Source: a cyanobiont of Ornithocercus magnificus
GTDB lineage: Bacteria; Cyanobacteriota; Cyanobacteriia; PCC-6307; Cyanobiaceae
Assembly: GCA_007996965.1 (NCBI GenBank)
Contig: BIMP01000001.1
Location: forward strand, 1,178,001-1,242,000
Length of the DNA: 64,000 bases
Direction: 5' to 3'
Part shown: one piece after another, positions 3,945 to 11,019 of the stretch
How positions within the stretch are numbered: position 1 is the stretch's first letter
How the letters are laid out: each line of letters starts with the position of its first letter
The notes under the pieces: generated by a model
Told to the model about the DNA's origin: nothing
Database searches by the model: none
The model's input: only the letters and a program-made list of their open reading frames with translations
Position numbers and translations under genes: made by a program

Positions 3945-4892
3945 ATGAGTCTAAAATCTTCACAATACTACTTACTGCAAGTCCTAACCCTGCTGCTGCT
4001 AACAGGATGCTTAGCGGAGCCACTCAGGTCACCTCCACGCCAGGCTAATACAAGTGCTGCAGACCGCCCTGTGGTGCTCACTACTTTCAGCATACTTGCG
4101 GATATAGCTCGCAACGTAGCTGGCGACCGTTTAGAAGTACGCTCAATAACTCGGGAGGGTGCCGAGATCCATGGTTATGAGCCTTCTCCTAGTGATATTA
4201 AGCGAGCTACTGGTGCAAACCTGATTGTCAAGAATGGCCTAGGTCTTGAGGCCTGGTTCCAGCGATTCATCCGTAGTGTTGGTGATGTACCTACAGTTAC
4301 ACTCAGCGATAGTATAGACACACCACTACCAATTATTGGAGATCGACCTAATCCGCATATATGGATGTCACCACAACTTACGGTAAAATATGTAGATGTT
4401 TTAGTTAGTGCTTTTACGAAACTTGATCCTAGCAGCACAGAACTATTCATTGCCAACGGTGCTGCTTATAAAGCTAGATTACTAGAGCTTGACAAAGAGA
4501 TGAGAGAGGGACTTGCCGTAGTTCCTAAAGAGCAACGCTTGCTTGTGACTTGTGAAAGGGCTTTCAGCTATCTTGCCATTGATTATGGTCTAGATGAAGC
4601 TTACCTCTGGCCTATGAATGGGGAAAGTCAAGTGACACCTCAGCGTATGGCTCGCCTGATTGAGGTAGTGCAACGCCGAAAAGTACCTGCAGTATTTTGC
4701 GAAAGTACAGTGAGCGATAAAGCGCAGAGGCAAGTAGCTCACGCAGCTGGCACTAAGTTTGGTGGGAACCTCTATGTTGACTCCCTGTCAACTCCTGATG
4801 GCCCAACGCCAACTCTATTAGATTTGCAGCGCTATAATGTAAGACTTATTATCAAGGGACTAGCTCCACAGGGAGAGATTAATGCGCGTTGA
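3945..4892 (+). CDS. mntC: Manganese ABC transporter substrate-binding lipoprotein (MntC type)
   Basis: This 315-aa cluster A-I solute-binding protein delivers Mn2+ to an ABC importer. The N-terminal signal ends in a lipobox, LLTGC, with Cys22. The predicted metal ligands are His76 (EIHGYEP), His138 (NPHIWM), Glu204 (TCERAF) and Asp279 (YVDSLS). His-His-Glu-Asp is the manganese set of Synechocystis MntC, and the spacing between the last three residues also agrees. There is no His-rich loop of the zinc proteins. It overlaps the start of the ATPase gene by 11 bases, so the genes form an operon. Confidence 0.85.
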   Translation: MSLKSSQYYLLQVLTLLLLTGCLAEPLRSPPRQANTSAADRPVVLTTFSILADIARNVAGDRLEVRSITREGAEIHGYEPSPSDIKRATGANLIVKNGLGLEAWFQRFIRSVGDVPTVTLSDSIDTPLPIIGDRPNPHIWMSPQLTVKYVDVLVSAFTKLDPSSTELFIANGAAYKARLLELDKEMREGLAVVPKEQRLLVTCERAFSYLAIDYGLDEAYLWPMNGESQVTPQRMARLIEVVQRRKVPAVFCESTVSDKAQRQVAHAAGTKFGGNLYVDSLSTPDGPTPTLLDLQRYNVRLIIKGLAPQGEINAR

Positions 4893-5637
4893 GGTTGATC
4901 AGGTTTGCGTCAACTATAATGGCTTTGTTGCATTGCACAATGCAACACTAAACTTGCCAGCTGGAAGTATATGCGGCTTAGTTGGTATGAATGGAGCTGG
5001 TAAATCAACTCTATTTCGTGTTCTTACAGGCTTCGTTAGCCCATCACAGGGACGAATTCACATAAATGGCATGACTGTTGCCCAAGCTCAACGTGCACAG
5101 TCCGTAGCCTACATGCCTCAAAACGAGAACATTGACTGCAATTTCCCAATATCAGTGTGGAATGTAGTAATGATGGGACGTTATGGCAATATGAATATGT
5201 TACGCATACCCCGTGGTTGTGACCGGGCAGCGGTACTTCATGCTCTAGAGCAAGTTGAATTGCTGGAGTTATCAAGGCGTCCAATCGCAACTCTCTCTGG
5301 CGGACAGCGTAAACGCTGCTTCCTAGCCCGGGCAATTGCCCAGCATGCTTCTGTACTGCTTCTTGATGAACCTTTTAATAGCGTTGATGTGCAAACTGAG
5401 AAACTTATAGTAGACCTTTTGCTACAGCTTCAGGTTGAGGGACGCACGATTCTAATTTCAACCCATGACCTTAGTCAAGTACGTAATTTCTGTAACTTGG
5501 TAGTGCTGATTAATAAAACTATTCTAGCCTATGGTAATACTTCAGAAATATTTACACAGGATAATCTAGCTTTGGCTTTCGGAGGCATACCATCCAACTT
5601 ACTCTTTGGCAAAAGCCCCCCCAAGACTTTTCTCTAA
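4882..5637 (+). CDS. mntA: Manganese/zinc ABC transporter ATP-binding protein
   Basis: This 251-aa nucleotide-binding subunit energises metal import. Walker A is GMNGAGKST (35-43), the signature LSGGQ lies at 138-142, Walker B VLLLDE at 158-163 and the switch His at about 195. The Q-loop sits in YMPQNENIDCNFPISVWN, which is typical of the Mn/Zn ABC-3 family. The gene overlaps mntC and lies about 118 bases before the permease. Given two different binding proteins in the cluster (MntC and a ZnuA type), this ATPase could serve both. Confidence 0.88.
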   Translation: MRVEVDQVCVNYNGFVALHNATLNLPAGSICGLVGMNGAGKSTLFRVLTGFVSPSQGRIHINGMTVAQAQRAQSVAYMPQNENIDCNFPISVWNVVMMGRYGNMNMLRIPRGCDRAAVLHALEQVELLELSRRPIATLSGGQRKRCFLARAIAQHASVLLLDEPFNSVDVQTEKLIVDLLLQLQVEGRTILISTHDLSQVRNFCNLVVLINKTILAYGNTSEIFTQDNLALAFGGIPSNLLFGKSPPKTFL

Positions 5638-5755
5638 GCAACAACCTCTACAGATGGTGGTGATGTAGCTTGGTTGAGCAGCATTGACTGTCTAAGTCGA
5701 TGAGTCTGGGAGACTTTTTGAGACTGCTTCTATTTTTATTTCTCGATCCTAGTGT

Positions 5756-6598
5756 ATGGTTAACTTACTTCTAGAGCCTCTGCGTCATGCATTCATGGTT
5801 CAGGCTCTACTAATCAGTACTCTCGTTGGTGCAGTCTGTGGACTGTTGTCATGTTATATGACTCTTAAGGGCTGGGCACTAATGGGTGACGCTGTCTCCC
5901 ATGCTGTACTGCCAGGAGTAGTTCTTTCTTACGCTCTTGGGCTCCCATTTTCGCTCGGTGCTTTTGTATTTGGCTTGGGTTCAGTAGTAGCAATCGGTTT
6001 CATCCAGCAGAATTCACGAATTAAGGAAGACACAGTAATTGGCCTAGTGTTTACTGGTTTTTTTGCCTTTGGATTAGTGCTAGTTTCCAAAACGCGTAGT
6101 AGTACTGACCTCACTCATATCCTCTTTGGCAATGTTCTTGGTATCTCTGCTGGCGATATTCAGCAAACGCTGCTAATTTCTGTGCTTGTCATGACCTTGC
6201 TGTTACTATTTAACCGCGACTTACTGCTATTTTGCTTTGATGCTGCTCATGCCCAATCTATAGGCATCAACACTAACTTTCTACACTACTTACTGCTGTC
6301 AATGCTTTCTTTAACCGCTGTTGCTGGATTGCAGACAGTAGGCATTATCCTTGTAATTGCAATGCTAGTAACACCAGGTGCGTCTGCCTATTTGCTCACC
6401 GACCGCTTTGATTACATGGGCCTGTTAGCAATACTTAGCAGTGCTCTTTCTAGTTTTCTTGGTGTGGTCGTAAGCTACTGGACTGACAGCTCTACTGCTG
6501 GCTGTATAGTACTGGCCCAAACTGGGGTATTCCTGCTTGCCTTTGTGTTCGCACCACGACATGGTATTTTGACGTCTCTTACAAGACCAAAACTTTGA
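5756..6598 (+). CDS. mntB: Metal ABC transporter permease (ABC-3 family)
   Basis: This 280-aa integral membrane protein has about eight hydrophobic segments and the ABC-3 signature region GWALMGDAVSHAVLPGVVLSY near residues 42-62. Later segments (LQTVGIILVIAMLVTPGASAYLL) are typical of MntB/ZnuB. It forms the pore for Mn2+ and possibly Zn2+ with the ATPase just upstream. The gene is followed after 48 bases by a ZnuA-type binding protein, which supports one transcription unit. The start at 5756 is GTG or nearby; the alternative ATG at residue 14 is also possible. Confidence 0.88.
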   Translation: MVNLLLEPLRHAFMVQALLISTLVGAVCGLLSCYMTLKGWALMGDAVSHAVLPGVVLSYALGLPFSLGAFVFGLGSVVAIGFIQQNSRIKEDTVIGLVFTGFFAFGLVLVSKTRSSTDLTHILFGNVLGISAGDIQQTLLISVLVMTLLLLFNRDLLLFCFDAAHAQSIGINTNFLHYLLLSMLSLTAVAGLQTVGIILVIAMLVTPGASAYLLTDRFDYMGLLAILSSALSSFLGVVVSYWTDSSTAGCIVLAQTGVFLLAFVFAPRHGILTSLTRPKL

Positions 6599-6646: not shown

Positions 6647-7648
6647 ATGTTTCATAGAAAGAGACGTAAAGGAGTTAACCTTATTGGTAGTAGTGCTCTA
6701 CACCAGCATACGCTCTACCTGATTACTCCCACGTTATTTTTTCTGTCAGCGATCAGCACAGTTGTGCCATCAGCAGCTAAGCAACTACCAGTCGTAGTTG
6801 CCGCTGACGGCGTCCTTTGCGACCTCAGCCGTACGCTGGCTGGCAACCAAGTTCAGGTTGTTTGCCTTGTCCCTCCAGGTGCTGATCCTCACAGCTTTGT
6901 TCTTAAACCCAGTGATCGCCGTAGCCTTGACCTAGCTCGCCTGATACTAATCAATGGTTATGGTCTAACCCCAACGCTGCGCAAGATCCGCGACGTTAGT
7001 ACTGTAGTGCCAGTAGCTGAGCGGGCAGTACCACAAAATCAAGCTAATTCTGATCCGCATGTTTGGCATGACCCTGCTCAGGCAAAGGCAATGCTGATGG
7101 TTGTTAGAAACCATCTTCAGATGCTGGTAGGACCAAATCGAAAGCAGGCTAAAGAGTTGCAACGGCGAGCCTGGGCAGCTGCGAATGTACTTGATGATCT
7201 TGCAGACTGGACTACTGACCAGATTAGTACCGTGCCTAAGACAAAGCGCGTACTAGTTAGTGAACATCGTGCTTTTTCAGCCTTTGCGCGCCGCTATGAT
7301 ATTCGAGAAGTTCCTTTAATAGATGACTATACTACCGGTGGCATGCTTCGCCCAGACACCCTTCGGAAGATTACCAAGAGTGTACGCGCCTCGGGCACAC
7401 AAGTTCTCTTTGCTGAAGCATTACCACCGTCAAAGATCCTGAGTAGGATGAGTCAGAGCAGTGCCATTCCAGTTGCTTCAGCCGCACTAGTTGCTGACGG
7501 CCTCGCATCTGGGCGAAGTCTAATACAAACTGCCACAGATAACGTCTGCACATTTGTCACAGCACAGGGCGGCAGATGCGATAACAAAGGGGCCGGCGTG
7601 CTGCAGCAGCGTTGGGCTACTTTGCACGTGAATCCTGCACCCATGTGA
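6647..7648 (+). CDS. znuA: Zinc ABC transporter substrate-binding protein (ZnuA type)
   Basis: This 333-aa cluster A-I binding protein has an N-terminal signal segment at about residues 22-44 without an obvious lipobox. The predicted ligands are His82 (ADPHSF), His138 (SDPHVW), His207 (SEHRAF) and Asp284 (VADGLA). A His-His-His-Asp set fits zinc, in contrast to the Glu-containing set of the MntC-like protein earlier in the same cluster. The charged His loop of many ZnuA proteins is absent. No second ATPase or permease is adjacent, so it probably uses the mntAB components; that is an inference from position. Confidence 0.75.
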   Translation: MFHRKRRKGVNLIGSSALHQHTLYLITPTLFFLSAISTVVPSAAKQLPVVVAADGVLCDLSRTLAGNQVQVVCLVPPGADPHSFVLKPSDRRSLDLARLILINGYGLTPTLRKIRDVSTVVPVAERAVPQNQANSDPHVWHDPAQAKAMLMVVRNHLQMLVGPNRKQAKELQRRAWAAANVLDDLADWTTDQISTVPKTKRVLVSEHRAFSAFARRYDIREVPLIDDYTTGGMLRPDTLRKITKSVRASGTQVLFAEALPPSKILSRMSQSSAIPVASAALVADGLASGRSLIQTATDNVCTFVTAQGGRCDNKGAGVLQQRWATLHVNPAPM

Positions 7649-7728: not shown

Positions 7729-8334
7729 TTGTCTACAGCTGACTACCGGTTTCTACCGGATGATCCCATTGCCGCTGTTCGCATGCCAGTTGGGCAAACT
7801 GTCCTACTTGACCCTGCGAGTCGACAGGGCGAAACAAGCCTTCAGGTCATGGAAGGCTTAGCCCGGGTTTACTGTCCTTGCGAAGAAACCGAAGGAATGA
7901 CCCTGGCATTCCTGAAATCCGGTGACCATCTACGTACTGACCGTCTGTGTAGTGAAGGTGTGTGTATTGAGGCACTAACTCCGCTCTGCTTTTGCAGTAA
8001 TGGAGAATTTGCTCAAGATAGGGGCTTTGACGCTGTAAATGAGTGGACCCTCCAACTTCTTCGCATCCGTCACCTTAGCTCTGCAGAGCAACGGTTGCAT
8101 GCGTTGCTAGCTCTGTTGGTCAACCGTCTTGGCCGCCGCTGCGGTGACTGGTGTGTTTTACCATTCCGCCCCACCCATGAACGGTTTGGTGAACTGATAG
8201 GAGCTACAAGGGTGACTTCTACTCGACTGCTCTCACGCCTTCGTCGTCTTGGCCAGCTCCAGGCTCCAGCGGGACAGTCACAGCTCCAGCTTTCTCCTGA
8301 CCTGATCCTATCCGCGCCGCTACTGATGAATTAA
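7729..8334 (+). CDS. CRP/FNR-family transcriptional regulator
   Basis: This 201-aa protein has a degenerate cyclic-nucleotide-type beta domain (residues 15-90), a dimer helix (103-130) and a C-terminal winged helix at 149-175, THERFGELIGATRVTSTRLL. That is the usual CRP-family HTH pattern. The cAMP-binding cassette is not recognisable, so the ligand is unknown. Six cysteines fall in or near the sensor part, which could suit metal or redox sensing. The start is TTG. It sits between metal importers and ferritin, so metal control is plausible but not shown. Confidence 0.75.
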   Translation: MSTADYRFLPDDPIAAVRMPVGQTVLLDPASRQGETSLQVMEGLARVYCPCEETEGMTLAFLKSGDHLRTDRLCSEGVCIEALTPLCFCSNGEFAQDRGFDAVNEWTLQLLRIRHLSSAEQRLHALLALLVNRLGRRCGDWCVLPFRPTHERFGELIGATRVTSTRLLSRLRRLGQLQAPAGQSQLQLSPDLILSAPLLMN

Positions 8335-8340
8335 CCGCTG

Positions 8341-8649
8341 ATGACTGTACTACGTTGTGCTGAACTGCAGGTCGATAATCTTGTGTGTGCTTTGGGCCGC
8401 GAGGTTGAAACTCTGCGTCGCCGACAGGGCCATCTCGCCCGTAGCCTTCCCAGTTGTTGGGATATTCATCTAATCTCCCGCCTGCGTCATGAGCAGTACA
8501 GAATCCATCTAAGGTTGCAGGAGATCAGGCGCACAGCGGTGTTGTTGCAGCTGTATCTCCCAGAACCCTCACTAACTATGGACTGGCTGCAAGAACTCTG
8601 CAATAGAGGCAATCAGGAACTGATAAGTGTGTTACCAGAGCTTAGCTGA
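8341..8649 (+). CDS. Hypothetical helical protein, 102 aa
   Basis: This frame starts seven bases after the CRP-like regulator and is probably cotranscribed with it. The protein is strongly basic and helical, with heptad-like Leu and Arg (REVETLRRRQGHLARSL, then LRHEQYRIHLRLQEIRR). It has no membrane segment. Its last 37 bases overlap, tail to tail, the end of the ferritin gene on the other strand. I do not recognise the family. It might be a small partner of the regulator. Confidence 0.5.
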   Translation: MTVLRCAELQVDNLVCALGREVETLRRRQGHLARSLPSCWDIHLISRLRHEQYRIHLRLQEIRRTAVLLQLYLPEPSLTMDWLQELCNRGNQELISVLPELS

Positions 8650-9221
8650 GCCGGTGTACTCTGACCACGGCCTAGTTCATCATCGACTAGCAGTATGGCG
8701 GCTGCCTGTTGCTCCGCAAGGCGCACTCGGCCAAGCAAATAAGCAGCCTCATGCTCAGCTCGAGTTTGCTTCTCCAGCATTGGATCTAGAAAAACTGTTG
8801 TACGCATGTCAGAAGACTGTTCCGCTAATGCATAAATCTGATGTAGGGATGTGGTGACATCTGATTCCATCCGGAAAGCTTGGACTAGAACATCTTCAGG
8901 CGAAACCCAACTTTGATATGGGGCGTCTAGCGGCTGTAGTTCCACCGTCTGTCCGCGGGATATTAGATAGTCGCCAAAGCGTGCAGCATGATCTAGTTCA
9001 TCAAGGGCTTCCTGTCGGTAATAGTGGGCGAAGCCACGGAGCTCACGCTCAGCAAACCAGATAGCAGCTGCAAAGTAGGCTGTATGTGCCTGGCGTTCCA
9101 TATTGAGGTGTTGCTGTGTCGCCAGCAACACCTCACGTTCCATTTGCTCAGCCATGGCACGCCCAGCAGGACCAACAGCGATGCCAATCGGAGGAGTGAT
9201 TACGGTCCTTGAGTCAGTCAT
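8613..9221 (-). CDS. ftn: Ferritin
   Basis: This non-haem ferritin stores iron as a mineral. The likely start is the second ATG (MTDSRTV, 9221), two codons inside the longest frame. In longest-frame numbering, the ferroxidase ligands are visible as Glu44 (LNMERQ), Glu77 and His80 (DELDHAARF), Glu121 (RMESDV) and Gln154 with Glu158 (LEKQTRAE). Tyr51 follows the family, and the four-helix bundle length of about 200 aa is normal. It is convergent with the regulator-hypothetical pair. A small palindrome lies about 40 bases upstream of the start. Confidence 0.88.
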   Translation of the reverse strand: MTDSRTVITPPIGIAVGPAGRAMAEQMEREVLLATQQHLNMERQAHTAYFAAAIWFAERELRGFAHYYRQEALDELDHAARFGDYLISRGQTVELQPLDAPYQSWVSPEDVLVQAFRMESDVTTSLHQIYALAEQSSDMRTTVFLDPMLEKQTRAEHEAAYLLGRVRLAEQQAAAILLVDDELGRGQSTPAQLSSGNTLISS

Positions 9222-9259
9222 GAGCAAACCTCATACTTGTCGATAGCTACAACTTAGAT

Positions 9260-9271
9260 TATCAAATGATA
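9260..9271. promoter_or_regulatory. Candidate operator upstream of ferritin
   Basis: TATCA-AA-TGATA is a perfect 5-bp inverted repeat with a 2-base spacer, about 33-39 bases before the ferritin start. It loosely resembles part of a Fur-type ATAAT/ATTAT palindrome and also FNR-like half sites. The CRP-family gene nearby is a possible binder. Short palindromes occur by chance in AT-rich spacers, so this is only a candidate. Confidence 0.25.
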
Positions 9272-9358
9272 CACCTTACCTTTTAGCTCTGTGACATTTG
9301 CTTTTCCAACACTCACCGCATGTGCTGATGTGAGTACTGAGTTAGTCTGTGTACTGGT

Positions 9359-9496
9359 ATGGTACTAAGTTTCTTGTCGGCTGAATTAGGGACAGAATCG
9401 AAGTATAGGTGCATCTATATCGGCAAAAAGAAAGGCTGCAAGAAGCGTAAGTGCTCTAAATGGAAGGGCGGAGCTTGCCGTTGCGGTCGTGACTGA
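9359..9496 (+). CDS. Cys/Lys-rich cationic microprotein, 45 aa
   Basis: ATG at 9359 opens 45 codons closed by TGA at 9494-9496. After a mildly hydrophobic start (MVLSFLSAELGTE), the peptide becomes very basic and cysteine-rich: nine Lys, four Arg and only three acidic residues, with Cys at 18, 27, 32, 40 and 42. The core includes GKKKGCKKRKC and GGACRCGRD. Such a composition is unlikely in random AT-rich spacer. It lacks the double-Gly leader of prochlorosins. Roles as a metal- or Fe-S-binding peptide, a nucleic-acid binder or a secreted cationic peptide are all possible. It lies next to ferritin, on the opposite strand. Confidence 0.55.
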   Translation: MVLSFLSAELGTESKYRCIYIGKKKGCKKRKCSKWKGGACRCGRD

Positions 9497-9660
9497 TAGC
9501 ATTATCGCATATTACATAATCTGGAGCCAGGTTACCCAATGTCAATGTCAAAGCCTAGTTAGTAGTTAATGTATAGCTAGATTTGCAAGCATATTCTACT
9601 GTAATAGTGCAACTCTAGATACCAATACATCTAATTTTAACAAACATTTTAAGCTAGTGA

Positions 9661-9699
9661 AAAAATCTGTCACTTTAAAGTTAAGTGAACAGTTTAAAA
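9661..9699. terminator. Hairpin with flanking A and T runs
   Basis: CTGTCACTT (9667-9675) pairs with AAGTG plus ACAG (9683-9692, one bulged A) across a 7-base loop. It is preceded by five A and followed by TTTAAAA, so it could end transcripts in either direction, including one from the 45-aa peptide gene. The stem is AT-rich, so it would be a weak terminator. Confidence 0.3.
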
Positions 9700-9861
9700 T
9701 TGTCATGCTGCTGAGGAGACAACTAATAAAATAAACCGTAGCCTCATGGCTGCTTTCTAAAAAAGCCAAAGCATTGTAAAGATCATAGTATTCATTCATA
9801 TTGCTTCAATGAGCAGGCCTTGATCCATGACAATGCATCATTGAGCCTATCGATTGACCTG

Positions 9862-11019
9862 ATGTTCGCCGACCAGCGCTGGCCCTGGTGGCCGCTGCTA
9901 CCGCTCTACCCCTATAGCCGGCGCACAACACTACTTACTGAGCTAATTCCAGGAGAGGTCTGGAGTCTCGAACAGCTACAAGGCATCTACTACGTTGCTG
10001 TTCCTATTCGTCTGACAGTGGTACGTATAAGCGGCGGACTAATGCTAGTCAACCCTCTGCCGCCTACACTGGAGTTACAGAGTCTGCTCCAACTGCTGGT
10101 CAAGCGTTATGGGCCGGTACGCACGATCGTGCTGCCCACTGCCTCAGGACTTGAGCACAAACTGCCGCTTCCAGCTCTGGCGCGAGCTTATCCAGAAGCA
10201 GAACTATGGCTTTGTCCCGGGCAATGGAGCTTTCCACTGTCTTTACCTTCGCCATGGCTAGGTATCCCAGCACAGCGTAGTCACACACTACTCGAAGATG
10301 GTGTACCTCATGCTGATACTTGCGAATGGCTATCTTTCGGGCCACTCGATCTGGGCATAGGGCGATTCCAGGAAATTAGCTGTTTGCATCGGCCTTCCGG
10401 TTCACTAATAGTTACTGATGCACTGTTAGGCATCGGGTCTGAGCCTCCAGCGATCTTTGATCATGATCCAACACCACTCCTGTTTCATGCACGTGAGCGT
10501 GGTGACGAGCTACTGCAAGATACGCCCGAGTCTCGCCGCCGCGGCTGGATGAGGATAGTTCTATTTGCATCCTATTTACGACCAGAACCGCTGGAGGTGC
10601 CAGGATGGGAGGAACTACTACGCTATGCCTTCAGACCTGGTTTGCGTTCTGCTCGCACTCATTTTGGAATTTATCCCTTTCGCTGGAAAGATGGCTGGGA
10701 TTTAACTGCCGCCACACTCATCGGAGCGAGTAGCCCAAGACTGCAAATCGCACCAGTATTGGAGCGGCTCGTCTTGCCACGAGCGCAGTGTGTCTTACTT
10801 GATTGGCTTGCACGCTTGAAAGAGTTGCACGGCCTTCGCTGGTTAGTTCCAGCGCACTATGCCGCACCCTTAGCTTTCACCCCTGAGATCATTTGCCAGT
10901 TTCAGGCTGACCTGACAAACCGTGATTGGGCAAAGAGTCAAGGTAACTGGCATTTCCTTGGAGCAATCGATCGATGGTTGCTCAGTTTAGGTCTTGTCCC
11001 TAAGCAGCCTAATGTATAG
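9862..11019 (+). CDS. DUF4336 family protein
   Basis: This protein of about 385 aa belongs to the DUF4336 family, which is found in cyanobacteria and plants and resembles metallo-beta-lactamase-fold proteins, with no established reaction. I choose ATG at 9862 (MFADQRWPWWPLLPLYPY), because the longer frame from TTG at 9820 adds 14 residues of low quality. The typical conserved core includes PGEVWSLEQLQGIYYVAVPIR and a later LVPAHYAAP. The classical HxHxDH zinc motif is not evident. The gene is alone on the plus strand and is preceded by a spacer of about 365 bases. Confidence 0.75.
   Translation: MFADQRWPWWPLLPLYPYSRRTTLLTELIPGEVWSLEQLQGIYYVAVPIRLTVVRISGGLMLVNPLPPTLELQSLLQLLVKRYGPVRTIVLPTASGLEHKLPLPALARAYPEAELWLCPGQWSFPLSLPSPWLGIPAQRSHTLLEDGVPHADTCEWLSFGPLDLGIGRFQEISCLHRPSGSLIVTDALLGIGSEPPAIFDHDPTPLLFHARERGDELLQDTPESRRRGWMRIVLFASYLRPEPLEVPGWEELLRYAFRPGLRSARTHFGIYPFRWKDGWDLTAATLIGASSPRLQIAPVLERLVLPRAQCVLLDWLARLKELHGLRWLVPAHYAAPLAFTPEIICQFQADLTNRDWAKSQGNWHFLGAIDRWLLSLGLVPKQPNV

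Follow-up and report, generated by a model that had tools for sequence, protein, structure and literature searches.

Bfd is a small [2Fe-2S] protein that unloads bacterioferritin; it is encoded beside bfr in many genomes and is expressed differently (PMC7762939). When Bfd is missing, iron becomes trapped in bacterioferritin (PMC7760384). SynFtn represents a distinct Ftn class of the non-haem type, the iron chemistry of which has been studied in detail; no accessory partner was found in the open-access literature consulted, and the SynFtn papers in it name no small partner protein. The Bfd domain is itself essentially absent from the picocyanobacterial family considered here (4 of 121 genomes, each time inside a larger ORF).

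The window analysed here, a 64,000-nucleotide stretch of the genome of a cyanobiont of Ornithocercus magnificus, carries a microprotein gene next to a ferritin gene. Like Bfd, the microprotein is a small Cys4 protein tied to a ferritin-type cage and to iron supply; its gene lies beside the cage gene, apparently under its own promoter, and co-occurrence and synteny show that the two are genetically coupled. Unlike Bfd, it has no sequence match to PF04324 (Fer2_BFD), its cysteines are spaced C-x4-C-x7-C-x-C and not CxC...CxxC, and its partner would be a non-haem ferritin of the SynFtn type, any cluster or activity being a prediction. Judged by its sequence, the protein is a ferritin-linked small Cys protein unrelated to known Bfd and unmodelled by Pfam, NCBIfam and PHROGs.

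Other described proteins share some of these features. Cys4 zinc knuckles and SEC-C-type motifs also place four metal-type ligands, including a CxC, within a short basic segment, but their spacing and order differ and the microprotein has no Pfam match. Cyanobacterial metallothioneins of the SmtA type are likewise small Cys proteins linked to metal homeostasis, whereas the microprotein has only four conserved Cys, a strongly cationic core and an invariant Trp, and finds no family match in Pfam or NCBIfam that would make it a metallothionein. SynFtn of Synechococcus CC9311, a 24-mer cage subunit, would be a partner of the microprotein and is not a relative.

The microprotein gene and its locus

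The features of the locus, in window coordinates, are as follows.

3945–6598, forward strand: mntCAB-type metal ABC importer (MntC/ZnuA-type binding protein, ABC ATPase and permease), particular to the window's arrangement
6647–7648, forward strand: second ZnuA-like binding protein
7729–8334, forward strand: CRP-like regulator, a conserved neighbour (Pfam HTH_Crp_2; four invariant Cys in the sensor part)
8341–8649, forward strand: 102-aa ORF, related to an ORF of ~95 aa at the same operon position in relatives
8613–9227, reverse strand: ferritin of the SynFtn type, divergent and co-inherited neighbour (Pfam Ferritin, E 4e-27; solved relatives; co-occurrence)
9258–9273, forward strand: ATTATCAAATGATACA, conserved spacer element resembling CRP/NtcA-type sites (recurrence in relatives' spacers)
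9359–9496, forward strand: intact microprotein ORF, 45 aa from the ATG at 9359, more likely 40 aa from the TTG at 9374
9425–9484, forward strand: conserved core KKKGCKKRKCSKWKGGACRC (alignment of 41 members; C27, C32, C40, C42, W35 and G37 invariant)

Translation of 9359–9496 on the forward strand gives MVLSFLSAELGTESKYRCIYIGKKKGCKKRKCSKWKGGACRCGRD, confirming the intact ORF of the preliminary description. The composition given there (five Cys, nine Lys, four Arg and three acidic residues) is correct for the whole 45-residue peptide and not, as had been written, for its basic core. The true start is probably the TTG at 9374 (MSAELG...), giving a 40-aa product, since the N-terminal pattern of the family, M-x-x-x-[IL]-G, fits there better than at the ATG. 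The spacer that holds the gene (9228–9819) contains no other recognised gene and adjoins the ferritin gene, as had been described, and the mntCAB importer, ZnuA protein and CRP-like regulator said to lie within 5.6 kb were recovered as an ABC importer, a ZnuA-like protein and a CRP-family HTH protein. Downstream of the microprotein gene lies a DUF4336 gene (9820–11019), at a position occupied in relatives by FutC-like or FutB genes; in the window no Fut gene adjoins the microprotein. The source genome is 1.88 Mb in size and was the sole representative of its genus among the genomes searched.

When the ferritin was compared with solved structures, the best matches were 6gka, 5ouw and 7pf9 (E about 1e-53), which we take to be the SynFtn structures of Synechococcus CC9311, and the next group followed at 1e-22. 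On this similarity the window ferritin is assigned as a SynFtn ortholog. In 29 of 29 relatives the CRP-like regulator keeps C49, C51, C74 and C79 of its sensor part; it may therefore be a CRP-type regulator of the iron locus that senses a metal or an Fe-S cluster. The 102-aa ORF has no Pfam match; the ~95-aa family to which it belongs is conserved and uncharacterised, and in many relatives its members separate the CRP-like gene from ferritin.

Conservation of the microprotein and its co-inheritance with ferritin

A search with the single sequence returned matches at E <1e-3, and down to 1e-10, in more than 40 of the 60 further genomes of the same family that were sampled, and a profile search found homologs in 218 of 300 genomes of the family, with ferritin among the recurrent neighbours. 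The conservation and ferritin synteny that the preliminary description had proposed to look for are thus present in picocyanobacteria. Of 291 genomes sampled across the class, the profile matched 31 of the 36 from the microprotein's own family and none of the 255 other cyanobacteria, and a scan of a collection of 85,000 species found matches only in records whose names point to picocyanobacteria or to what appear to be close allies. Named relatives with homologs include Prochlorococcus, Synechococcus, Cyanobium and Candidatus Synechococcus spongiarum.

Residue-level conservation spans 49 genera and centres on a shared core, KKKxCKKxKCSKWKGGxCxCG. The four-Cys pattern is invariant in all 41 aligned members, as are W35 and G37, and K23-25, K28, K31, S33, K36 and G38 are nearly so. 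All five Cys reported initially are present, of which only these four are conserved, C18 lying in the variable part. Family members are about 35–50 aa long, with a net charge of +8 to +14 and a variable N-terminus that often starts M-x-x-x-[IL]-G. Copies differ mainly at third codon positions. For 12 close Cyanobium-type copies the pooled dN/dS, a check suggested at the outset, was 0.19 overall and zero for the core at a median dS of about 0.44, and in the spongiarum group the ratio was 0.19 over the last 33 codons. These values demonstrate that strong purifying selection acts on the microprotein as a protein. Neither a lack of homologs nor in-frame stops in relatives, which had been named as evidence against a gene, was found, and the microprotein is almost certainly encoded by a genuine protein gene. 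Some genomes have a second copy (G004 C2 and C11; G115 C1:552608), one of them with an internal stop. In genus g56, which has small genomes, matches are weak and shortened, which suggests gene decay.

Database searches placed the family nowhere. For the 41 members Pfam gave no match except one DUF1540 hit in a single member (E 0.03), and PHROGs, searched with all members, gave a single CII-like phrog (E 0.039), both at chance level; NCBIfam gave no significant family match for any member, a profile search of the PDB found nothing, and no description of the microprotein was found in text searches of the open-access literature. AlphaFold, run on the 41-member alignment, returned a pLDDT of 63 and a pTM of 0.28. 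A phage-borne origin was not supported, as a scan of viral contigs yielded no relative.

The window ferritin was searched in the same 300 genomes and found in 217. Both genes were present in 208 genomes and neither in 73; the 19 discordant genomes, 9 with ferritin and no detected microprotein and 10 with the reverse, count against coupling. Because relatedness inflates a raw Fisher value, the association was stratified by genus, leaving out 17 negatives without a genus label; the common odds ratio within genera was about 38, and 17 genera hold both microprotein states. Of 16 near-complete genomes with no or a poor microprotein match, 14 also lack ferritin, and the two that have it (G003 and G055) have a weak or shortened microprotein match.

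Ferritin and microprotein genes are often adjacent, so part of their co-loss may reflect single deletions. Physical linkage cannot, however, fully explain the co-occurrence, since it holds in the single-contig genomes G120, G178 and G250, where ~219, 92 and 83 kb, respectively, separate the microprotein from the sole ferritin match. Moreover, among the 82 genomes without the microprotein, the CRP-like gene is kept in at least 45 and ferritin in 9, and the microprotein therefore follows ferritin and not the locus generally. Taken with its discordant cases, this pattern makes it very probable that the function of the microprotein is coupled to SynFtn-type ferritin. The net charge of the ferritin subunit, –6 to –15, is opposite to that of the microprotein.

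Gene order and promoter elements in relatives

Two arrangements recur around the microprotein gene. In the Prochlorococcus-like order the CRP-like gene and the ~95-aa ORF (both forward) are followed by ferritin (reverse), the microprotein (forward) and a FutC-like ATPase (reverse). In the Cyanobium-like order the CRP-like gene and the microprotein (both forward) are followed by FutB and FutA (both reverse), and some of these genomes also have the ~95-aa ORF (forward) and ferritin (reverse) between the CRP-like gene and the microprotein. In G060 the CRP-like gene is convergent and lies after the microprotein, with FutA and ferritin 3–5 kb away. FutA was identified from the match of the neighbouring binding protein to 8c4y, an iron ABC binding protein (E 6e-102), whereas the names FutB and FutC are given by association, their NCBIfam matches being below cut-off. 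The best of the sub-threshold NCBIfam matches, PhnS/T/U, would have made the importer one for 2-aminoethylphosphonate, and this was rejected since the binding protein is of the iron type. What relatives keep beside the microprotein is ferritin, the CRP-like regulator and an iron importer of the Fut type. Metal importers had been offered as context; those of the Mn/Zn type proved specific to the window, and it is the iron importers that are conserved, so iron is the metal to consider.

An rRNA or repeat neighbour was suspected from several Cyanobium contigs that start a short way upstream of the microprotein; Rfam found no rRNA in a sample of these loci, and several of the contigs start inside the CRP-like gene. 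In L066 a cobalamin riboswitch (10260–10441, minus strand) lies ~4 kb downstream of a microprotein homolog.

The spacer between ferritin and microprotein contains two recurrent elements. Near the microprotein, 22 of 30 ferritin-adjacent spacers have a Fur-like box, a TGAGAATNAATCTCA-like palindrome at 11/14 positions or better, against 1.7% in shuffles, the consensus having been derived from the same spacer sequences on which it was scored. Of these boxes, 21 of 22 lie 15–30 nt before the start codon, mostly directly behind a TAnnnT –10 element. The independent Fur 7-1-7 consensus gave a mean score of 10.3 on the spacers, compared with 8.8 when shuffled and 9.2 for the highest shuffle mean. 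Across nine genomes the strict box pattern occurred in only five places, namely two microprotein promoters, two sites upstream of the CRP-like gene where it diverges from an antenna gene, and one elsewhere. In L105 and L109, around position 1501, the CRP-like gene and the gene for a chlorophyll a/b-binding antenna protein (Pcb) point away from each other with the same Fur-like box in the interval. On these motifs, a single iron-starvation regulon may cover the regulator, the antenna and the microprotein. The window's own microprotein promoter has no Fur-like box, which counts against control by Fur, and a search of its whole genome gave no more than two one-mismatch sites, both away from the microprotein. 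Fur-family genes are present in all 8 genomes tested, that of the window included.

On the ferritin side, AATGATACA or a close variant is present in 22 of 30 spacers, nearly always 85–98 nt from the microprotein start, and the window has it at 9258–9273. The element resembles the sites of NtcA/CRP-type regulators, which have the form GTA-N8-TAC. The AAATGATACA element may be a candidate site for the CRP-like protein, as the TGAGAATNAATCTCA element may be for Fur.

A possible partner of SynFtn

The four invariant Cys look like a metal site. By analogy with Bfd and bacterioferritin, the microprotein could be a small cationic metal-site protein that acts with SynFtn to mobilise stored iron in starvation, a reading to which we give a little less than an even chance. 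The Cys4 site would hold an Fe-S cluster or a metal, iron or zinc; Fur would repress the gene, with expression under iron shortage; and the cationic protein would dock on the acidic ferritin shell and help to release SynFtn-stored iron, in a role equivalent to that of Bfd at bacterioferritin. Bfd uses the haem of bacterioferritin and SynFtn is non-haem, so electrons would have to travel by a path other than the haem route. That the specific action is iron mobilisation is tentatively proposed from the same analogy, and the most detailed version, in which a starvation-induced metal or Fe-S protein of ~40 residues docks on SynFtn, drives iron release and so constitutes a non-homologous replacement for Bfd, is doubtful as a whole.

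Metal binding and nucleic-acid binding had both been suggested; the former is what four invariant Cys in an iron locus most naturally suggest, and the latter survives as a rival with the nearly invariant Lys in its favour. A zinc-knuckle-like regulator, in which the Cys hold Zn (or Fe) while the Lys at 23-25, 28, 31 and 36 bind DNA or RNA, might tune the ferritin and iron-uptake genes, perhaps together with the CRP-like regulator, behind which the microprotein stands in tandem in Cyanobium-type genomes. Its distribution nevertheless tracks ferritin and not the CRP-like gene, and it has no significant match to any known knuckle, ribbon or nucleic-acid-binding family, which leaves such a regulator unlikely. 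The Cys pattern with its CxC, the coupling to ferritin and the metal importers nearby would also suit a metal chaperone or buffer, delivering Fe2+ to ferritin or holding metal as a tiny metallothionein; a Fur-like box in relatives suggests a need at iron shortage and not excess, however, and typical metallothioneins do not look like a strongly cationic core with four thiols, making this an improbable, though still live, account.

The preliminary description also allowed for a secreted cationic peptide. An antimicrobial peptide or bacteriocin would be expected to be small, cationic and Cys-containing, as the microprotein is, but its distribution tracks ferritin, its genes remain in the iron locus alongside ferritin and iron uptake, the family has no conserved leader-like N-terminus, and export or modification genes were not seen among the recurrent neighbours. 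This explanation is accordingly very improbable, and a prochlorosin had rightly been discounted, the double-Gly leader being absent across the family. That the ORF arose by chance, or is a piece of a regulatory RNA, could be argued from its shortness and lack of a database family; it is scarcely credible given the conservation of residues over so many genera, the third-position variation, the unchanged core of one close group and the lack of any Rfam match at the locus.

Picocyanobacteria are the most abundant phototrophs of the ocean, carry out much of its photosynthesis and are often limited by iron. In a family essentially without Bfd, a co-inherited protein of ~40 residues provides a specific and easily made candidate for how SynFtn is loaded or unloaded, and it adds a conserved iron-linked gene to those that Pfam, NCBIfam and PHROGs do not model. 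Since the microprotein is conserved across picocyanobacteria, is kept or lost with one type of ferritin and lies among iron-handling genes, it probably helps these organisms to use stored iron, in a way so far undescribed.
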